Assembly (NCBI GenBank): GCA_015272325.1
Contig: JACYLU010000020.1
Span: 1-64,000 of the forward strand
DNA: 64,000 bases
Reading direction: 5' to 3'
Origin: Synechococcales cyanobacterium C42_A2020_086
GTDB lineage: Bacteria > Cyanobacteriota > Cyanobacteriia > Elainellales > Elainellaceae
The position numbers were made by a program, and so were the translations under genes. The notes beneath the pieces were generated by a model, which saw nothing but the letters and a program-made list of their open reading frames with translations, did no database searches and was not told the origin of the DNA. This document shows, in pieces, positions 13,685-14,394 of the stretch (within the stretch, counting starts at the first letter, position 1; every line of letters begins with the position of its first letter).

Positions 13685-13990
13685 ATGATCAATCCGCGTC
13701 AGTCAGACTCCAACGAAGGTGTGGGCAGCAATCCTGCTCCGCCGGCTTCTATCACTCTCCATTTATCGCCCGATCTGGCAGCAGCGCTGCATCGCTACAG
13801 TCAGCAATCGGGGCAGTCGCCAGCGGCAGCTATTACGGGGTTGCTCCGCTCTGCGTTGCAGTTAACTCCATCAACGTCTGTTCCTCCGGCGTTGATAGAG
13901 GAAGTACAGCGGCTTCAGGATCGCCTCAGTCAACTGGAAGAACTGATTCCTAAAGTCGAGGCGCTCGAGGGAAAGTGGCTCGCCTTCTGA
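13685..13990 (+). CDS. RHH-like/coiled-coil protein, zero-frame product of a two-ORF gene
   Basis: Unrecognised protein of 101 residues. After a polar N-terminus, residues about 22-57 (ITLHLSPDLAAALHRY... AAITGLLRSAL) look like a ribbon-helix-helix: one strand and two helices. Residues about 69-97 (LIEEVQRLQDRLSQLEELIPK) form a short coiled coil. The stop TGA at 13988 falls inside a stem-loop. At 13969-13975 the in-frame G GGA AAG heptamer lets a -1 shift continue into the zinc-ribbon ORF at 13975, giving a 236-residue fusion. An in-frame stop at 13673-13675 rules out starts further upstream than 13676; ATG 13685 is the first candidate. Confidence 0.65.
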   Translation: MINPRQSDSNEGVGSNPAPPASITLHLSPDLAAALHRYSQQSGQSPAAAITGLLRSALQLTPSTSVPPALIEEVQRLQDRLSQLEELIPKVEALEGKWLAF

Positions 13991-14018
13991 GAAGCCAAGC
14001 CTCCCCCTCTCAGAAGGC
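13969..14018 (+). promoter_or_regulatory. candidate programmed -1 ribosomal frameshift signal
   Basis: GGGAAAG (13969-13975) lies in X XXY YYZ register of the upstream ORF: codons GGA 13970 and AAG 13973. Six nt later a perfect 11-bp stem begins: 13982-13992 (GCCTTCTGAGA) pairs with 14008-14018 (TCTCAGAAGGC) around a 15-nt loop. Slip, spacer and stem match the known architecture of bacterial -1 signals. The -1 frame opens straight into the zinc-ribbon ORF. Confidence 0.6.
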
Positions 14019-14394
14019 AGACTCTCCTTCATCTCCGGCTGCCCCCCGTTCTAACCCTGCCTCCGAGCCAACCCGACCCCCTGCCGAGGTGAATCCTGGA
14101 TCGTCGGTGGCAACTCTCTGGATGCAGGTCAACCAAGATGATCATCCCCCTGCCTCTATTCCCTCGACGTTGCAGCCGTTGGCGCAATGTCCGCAGTGTG
14201 GGCAGTCGCTGGCACCGCCACTGCAGTCGAGCGGTCGCCAAGTTTGCAGGCAATGTGGCTGGTCCAATCGCCCTCGTAGTAGTTCCGCTGCCGCCGAATC
14301 TCAGAGTACGCTAGAGCTGAAACGGCTGTTGCAGCAAGCAGCTTCAGAGTCTCTAGAAAATATGAAACCTCGCAAGCAGAAACGCAAGGAGTAG
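13975..14394 (+). CDS. zinc-ribbon domain protein, -1 frame part of the two-ORF gene
   Basis: The 139-codon frame has a Pro/Ser-rich linker (about 1-65), a zinc ribbon with CPQCGQ and CRQCGW (two CxxC pairs about 20 residues apart), and a basic C-terminal tail (KPRKQKRKE). It overlaps the upstream ORF by 16 nt. Its only early start is GTG 13975, which is also the first -1 codon after the slippery site, so expression by frameshifting as the C-terminal half of a 236-residue protein is likely. Reinitiation at GTG with the close GAGGG is the alternative. Function unknown; RHH plus zinc ribbon suggests nucleic-acid binding. Confidence 0.65.
   Translation: MARLLRSQASPSQKADSPSSPAAPRSNPASEPTRPPAEVNPGSSVATLWMQVNQDDHPPASIPSTLQPLAQCPQCGQSLAPPLQSSGRQVCRQCGWSNRPRSSSAAAESQSTLELKRLLQQAASESLENMKPRKQKRKE

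Follow-up and report, generated by a model that had tools for sequence, protein, structure and literature searches.

The window analyzed here, a 64,000-nucleotide stretch of a contig from the Synechococcales cyanobacterium C42_A2020_086, contains two overlapping open reading frames that are read in different frames of the same strand (Table 1). ORF1 encodes a short protein that combines a ribbon-helix-helix (RHH)-like region with a predicted coiled coil, and ORF2 runs open in the -1 frame until the TAG at 14392-14394. With the -1 frame closed at 13951-13953 and the zero frame closed at 13988-13990, a protein joining the two parts would require a shift within positions 13954-13990, and GGGAAAG is the single slippery heptamer inside this interval. 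The first-pass annotation had placed this heptamer in the X XXY YYZ register (G GGA AAG), followed after 6 nt by a perfect 11-bp stem with a 15-nt loop, had located the zero-frame TGA in the stem, and had described a -1 frame of 139 codons with two CxxC pairs; all these elements can be read directly in the window.

Table 1. Coordinates of the features at the two-frame locus of the window and of a second candidate signal in another genome
Feature	Position	Strand	Evidence or remarks
ORF1 (zero frame, 101 aa, short product)	13685..13990	+	ends GK-WLAF-stop; homologues, AlphaFold2 model
RHH-like region, residues 21-58	13745..13858	+	model helices 29-42 and 46-58; Foldseek; profile matches
Long helix/coiled coil, residues 68-100; extended with VARLL in the shifted frame	13886..13984	+	model, alignment
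TAA closing the -1 frame upstream; left bound of the shift window	13951..13953	+	
Slippery heptamer G GGA AAG	13969..13975	+	alignment: invariant, 15/15 species
6-nt spacer; first position T invariant	13976..13981	+	alignment
Candidate stimulatory stem-loop	13982..14018	+	arms 13982-13992/14008-14018, loop 13993-14007
Zero-frame stop TGA, within the 5' arm	13988..13990	+	same position in 14/15 species
ORF2 (-1 frame, 139 codons), C-terminal portion of the predicted 236-aa long product	13975..14394	+	
Conserved motif PGSSVATLWMQVNQDDHPPASIPSTL	14095..14172	+	alignment
Zinc ribbon, two CxxC pairs	14188..14256	+	alignment; weak profile matches
C-terminal helix containing NMKPR	14296..14373	+	
Second signal, in genome G010	L125, G010:C204:816-900	-	GGGAAAG-TAG, then 12-bp stem

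The neighbors of the gene in the window are the Crr6 and PsiE genes and speA. Conserved synteny with speA was considered and discarded: speA adjoins the gene in the window, and among the relatives examined the pair is split between contigs or separated by a long distance. The two-frame gene of 8 other species stands divergent to a conserved gene of about 205-220 aa (L065:2753-3415, minus strand; equivalents in L067, L071, L073, L076, L078, L118, and L121), in some of them near purA; the members of this divergent family that were tested produced no Pfam or NCBIfam match, and the window genome has Crr6 in its place. A phage, plasmid, or virus origin of the locus was rejected as well, with no matches in searches that included phage records and viral contigs.

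Taken alone, the site in the window could be due to chance. The combination of a slippery heptamer and, 4-9 nt downstream, a perfect stem of at least 10 bp occurs once in the window (128 kb on both strands), at the GGGAAAG site, and the same scan of related DNA, about 450 kb in all, yielded 2 further sites; the folding energy of the window stem is unremarkable (z of -1.3, computed for this single sequence). What exceeds chance is the conservation across species.

Conservation of the heptamer, spacer, and stem

Protein searches covering 60 relatives showed that many genomes belonging to the same family have ORF1 and ORF2 next to each other. The GGGAAAG element is present in the orthologous gene of the window and of 14 other species from 9 genera, all within one cyanobacterial family of the Elainella/Drouetiella/Pegethrix type (NCBI places Elainella in Oculatellaceae, Oculatellales); the named carriers include Elainella saxicola, Drouetiella hepatica, Pegethrix bostrychoides, and Phormidium tenue FACHB-886. 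A degenerate pattern of the heptamer and stem matched 15 of the 390 genomes of the class, once in each and always at this gene, and the reversed pattern, run as a control over the same 390 genomes, gave 0 matches. When about 85,000 species were scanned with a free first position in the heptamer, 12 cyanobacterial loci were recovered, every one of them with GGGAAAG and none with another nucleotide in the free position, along with 5 unrelated bacterial matches. A covariance model searched against 380 genomes produced 15 matches with E values of about 1e-19 or lower; the next real match (E 2.7e-7) is in a different RHH-type gene of genome G010 (see below), and matches scoring under about 27 bits are background, some of them echoes of the hairpin on the reverse strand. 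The search for further signal-bearing genes with a relaxed pattern in the 390 genomes returned only 14 copies of the main gene and the one in G010.

In the oriented loci, the heptamer is identical and occupies the same place in all 15 genomes, the window included. The downstream sequence reads GCCTTCTGAG...CTCAGAAGGC, slightly altered at the loop end in two genomes, or, in the genus g17, GCCTCCTGAG...CTCAGGAGGC. The invariant blocks of the alignment are GAGGGAAAGT, GCCT-CTGA, and TCAG-AGGC, and the loop is variable. The hairpin loops of five loci (L008, L009, L017, L020, and L023) contain GCGATCGC, which we take to be HIP1, the highly iterated palindrome of cyanobacteria. Glu-Gly-Lys can be encoded in 16 ways; given the codon usage of the window, GAG GGA AAG is expected in a fraction of about 0.05 of the codings and is used in 15 of 15. 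As judged by eye, GAGG overlaps the heptamer in all the sequences, and a GGAGG-like sequence is present farther upstream in some only.

A stem of 9-11 bp follows the 6-nt spacer in each of the 15 species, with nine pairs intact in all of them, and when the 3' partner is slid by 1-3 columns, pairing falls from 87% to 33-49%. One of the pairs, U-A in 12 genomes, is C-G in the three of g17, a compensatory change that replaces Phe with Ser in the zero frame and Lys with Glu in the -1 frame while the pairing is kept; this covariation amounts to one event in one genus and supports the stem without proving it. Part of the conservation of the stem could be due to coding because both arms also encode protein. 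Judging from the alignment and the codon choice, the heptamer and the stem are apparently conserved beyond the coding need, and comparison of relatives at the nucleotide level, the test set beforehand for the proposed signal, found heptamer, spacer, and stem together in all 15 two-frame species.

The proposed frameshift and the single-frame relatives

The reading we favor, with a probability of roughly 90%, is that the locus is one gene in which a programmed -1 frameshift yields a short and a long form of an RHH-coiled-coil protein. Most ribosomes would read GGA AAG in the zero frame and reach the stop four codons on, releasing the 101-aa RHH-coiled-coil protein. The stem of 10-11 bp located 6 nt downstream would hold a fraction of the ribosomes at G GGA AAG, where tRNA-Gly and tRNA-Lys would slip in tandem to GGG AAA, with decoding resumed at GTG. 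The resulting 236-aa product would extend the coiled coil as VARLL and continue through a linker, the LW...PPASIPSTL motif, the zinc ribbon, and the terminal helix. We infer that ribosomes do slip here in the cell, that the product made without a shift predominates, and that both forms exist. In E. coli, G_GGA_AAG shows a strong tendency to shift (PMC5009743), and it has been employed as a slippery site in single-molecule studies (PMC9307594). The spacer found here falls within the usual range of 5-9 nt (PMC5009743). The initial remark gave a slippery heptamer 5-8 nt before a stem as the layout of bacterial -1 signals.

In two other lineages, g6 (G005 and G023) and g20 (G019 and G028), the RHH region, the coiled coil, and the zinc ribbon are encoded in one frame without the heptamer, and G035, which lacks the coiled coil and the ribbon, has a single-frame gene in which the LW motif immediately follows the RHH region. 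When the g6 and g20 proteins are aligned with the predicted shifted products, no gap appears through the junction (aligned strings LEGK-VDRLL, IEKN-VNDFT, METR-LDDLA, and LQAE-VDRLL). Homologs in a single frame without heptamer and stem, which the first-pass annotation had set against its own proposal, thus occur only in other lineages and are gap-free at the junction. The genome comparison indicates that the long protein is in all likelihood a real product of selection; the claim that one gene gives a short form and a 236-residue long form gains support from the conservation of the signal, from the selection described below, and from this gap-free alignment. The arginine decarboxylase tree strongly supports g6 as the sister group of the frameshift genome G006 and distributes the frameshift genomes over several deep branches; the direction of change between the two forms is not fixed because the root and the deep branches are weakly supported.

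The single-frame relatives also bear on the possibility, which we consider unlikely, that slippage at this site is a "savior" that compensates for an old frame change, one that became fixed early in the history of the family, with the short form being a by-product; the stem may then partly serve otherwise, for example, as a protein-binding RNA site. This explanation shares the mechanism of frameshifting with the programmed device and differs in purpose only. The g6 and g20 genes and the shortened gene of G035 show that, on the present set of genomes, the short form would be dispensable in places and not essential everywhere, but the heptamer, the spacer, and the stem are kept together at the spacing of known stimulators, and the two-frame form persists on several deep branches instead of being repaired.

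The zero frame ends at the same in-stem TGA (+19) in 14 species and at a TAG directly after the heptamer (+7) in G033, and the -1 frame is closed by a TGA immediately before GGG in 6 of the 15 species. From the heptamer onward, the residues of the -1 frame are conserved (V-D-R-L-L...PQKA). Pairwise dN/dS of ORF2 lies at 0.14-0.27, changes at third positions being in excess, and for both ORF1 and ORF2 the ratio is below 0.4 in all pairs with computable dS; together with the conserved -1 residues, these values imply that both frames are coding. In a competing arrangement, ORF1 and ORF2 would be two genes, the second one translated by coupling or reinitiation without any frameshift, for which a GTG overlapping the heptamer (13975 in the window; also in g17) could provide the start. 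We regard this arrangement as very improbable: in 8 of the 15 species, no ATG, GTG, or TTG is found in the -1 frame between the upstream stop and about +80, so that a conserved ORF2 start at the junction is absent and reinitiation fails to account for the joined protein of most species, even though VDRLL...PQKA is still conserved. Coupling, moreover, requires no X XXY YYZ heptamer, and the natural fusions join the two parts exactly at the junction. Transcriptional slippage, by which the two frames would likewise be joined in mixed products, is a still poorer explanation, given that slippage of this kind is not known in bacteria without A or T runs far longer than the longest runs here, just GGG and AAA, and that it leaves the conserved stem 6 nt downstream unexplained. 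The plain frameshift mutation kept open at the first pass, and likewise a pseudogene in decay or a faulty assembly, could be read into the single-frame relatives and the eroded C-termini of some species; these readings are effectively excluded by the persistence of the two-frame arrangement over nine genera in 15 separate assemblies (including the single-contig genome G002), by the purifying selection on both frames, with the low dN/dS of ORF2, and by a heptamer and stem seemingly kept beyond the coding need.

Predicted protein products and a second candidate gene

ORF1 and ORF2 were modeled separately, both with moderate confidence. In the AlphaFold2 model of ORF1 (mean pLDDT 66), two short helices follow a presumed strand and are in turn followed by the long helix. 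The top Foldseek matches are mostly RHH proteins (VapB, CopG, Arc), all weak (E 0.07 or higher); the profile matches include VapB26, NikR, and Mnt (E 0.01-0.25), and Pfam RHH_1 matched the window ORF1 with E 0.13 and a g17 member with E 0.013, both under the gathering score. ORF1 would thus resemble RHH antitoxins and repressors (VapB, CopG, Arc, NikR, Mnt) in its predicted beta-helix-helix-like N-terminus and differ from them in the coiled coil and in the optional, frameshift-encoded tail; no toxin gene was recognized among its neighbors in the window. We infer a role as a DNA-binding regulator, with a tail that is active in the long form only, and that RHH pairs would form mixed oligomers of short and long subunits.

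The product of ORF2 consists of a linker, the motif PGSSxAxLWxxVxQxxxPPASIPSTL, the zinc ribbon, and a helix with NMKPR, in this order. The ribbon of the window, with the knuckles CPQC...CRQC (two CxxC), falls below every Pfam cut-off and resembles, in weak profile matches, the S27ae/eS31 and RpoM ribbons. G006 lacks the ribbon, G022 has a degenerate one, and in G030 a stop interrupts it; the LW motif is missing from g17, where the ribbon is retained. On this distribution, the shifted frame would deliver a modular tail. The zinc ribbon noted at the outset in the -1 frame is real in the window genome, but it is not a universal payload, having been lost in some lineages that keep the frameshift, so that its role would not be a fixed one.

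In Elainella saxicola (G030; L063/L021), a TGA replaces the second cysteine of the first CxxC (YPQ-stop), so that the long form would end before the ribbon. The terminal NMK helix of ORF2 lies in another frame in G017 (L007), pointing to a recent indel in the last part of the long form. Elsewhere in the family, in a separate clade, a related ribbon and the NMKP helix make up a small stand-alone protein. The ribbon CPxCxxxLGxPLxSGRQVCxxCGWS occurs in several otherwise different cyanobacterial proteins, often at the N-terminus (L092-L104 and L106-L108), and thus appears to be a shared module. A class-wide search with the zinc-ribbon profile retrieved, as distant matches, other ribbon proteins, none with the RHH-coiled-coil-ribbon architecture.

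The extra match in G010 comes from an RHH-type gene that ends in ...ALEGK at GGAGGGAAAG-TAG and continues into a 12-bp stem (TGCCTCTCTCAG/CTGAGAGAGGCA) unrelated in sequence to the main stem. Its closest homolog, in G068 (L141), a member of another family, is encoded in a single frame and matches the shifted product: LEALERKFESLSQVVQELKEAI of G068 aligns with the shifted VAALEGK-VDCLSQTILELREAI of G010, the coiled coil continuing in the -1 frame. We treat this case as a lead, a single sequence from a fragmented assembly. Tentatively, and with considerable doubt, frameshifting could be a recurrent device of the RHH-coiled-coil proteins of this family that sets the ratio of short to long subunits, with the GAGGGAAAGT-spacer-GCCT layout having arisen, or been transplanted, again in G010.

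Known frameshift genes and implications

To our knowledge, conserved -1 signals in ordinary, non-mobile chromosomal genes of bacteria are few: dnaX, copA, csoS2, and some chelatases. The likeness to dnaX of E. coli and other bacteria lies in the chromosomal location, the heptamer with a stem-loop at 5-8 nt, and the two protein forms. In contrast to dnaX, where the heptamer is A AAA AAG, the site here is GGGAAAG, the shift would give the long form, inspection by eye shows no conserved Shine-Dalgarno sequence upstream, and the proteins are unrelated. In its logic, the locus is similar to phage lambda G/GT, where standard decoding gives the short product and a -1 shift the long one; the lambda heptamer is G GGA AAG as well, but the gene in the window has cellular neighbors, with no phage tail context and no phage genes identified around it. 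The same G GGA AAG is used by the g-t gene of HCTV-5 (PMC5009743). The csoS2 gene of alpha-carboxysome operons is likewise a chromosomal, non-mobile case of -1 frameshifting with two protein forms (PMC5009743), although it is a different gene and its shifted product is the shorter form. The magnesium chelatase and other GeneTack fs-gene clusters, described in a large 2013 survey (PMC3711429), resemble the present family in that the ORFs are adjacent in some genomes and fused in relatives, with measured frameshifting of up to 63%; the chelatase sites tested there, in contrast, are A-runs, and the parts of the survey consulted name neither the present gene nor any RHH regulator or cyanobacterial case of such kind. 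In the papers searched, no report of the present gene was found.

The slip site, invariant over nine genera, would add to the few chromosomal, non-mobile cases of -1 frameshifting, in a gene that annotation pipelines likely split into two hypothetical proteins. The single-frame versions in sister lineages represent a natural control for the purpose of the short form. The frameshift would give a likely DNA-binding protein a different tail depending on decoding and, if the device is indeed recurrent, the ratio of short to long regulator might respond to translation conditions.
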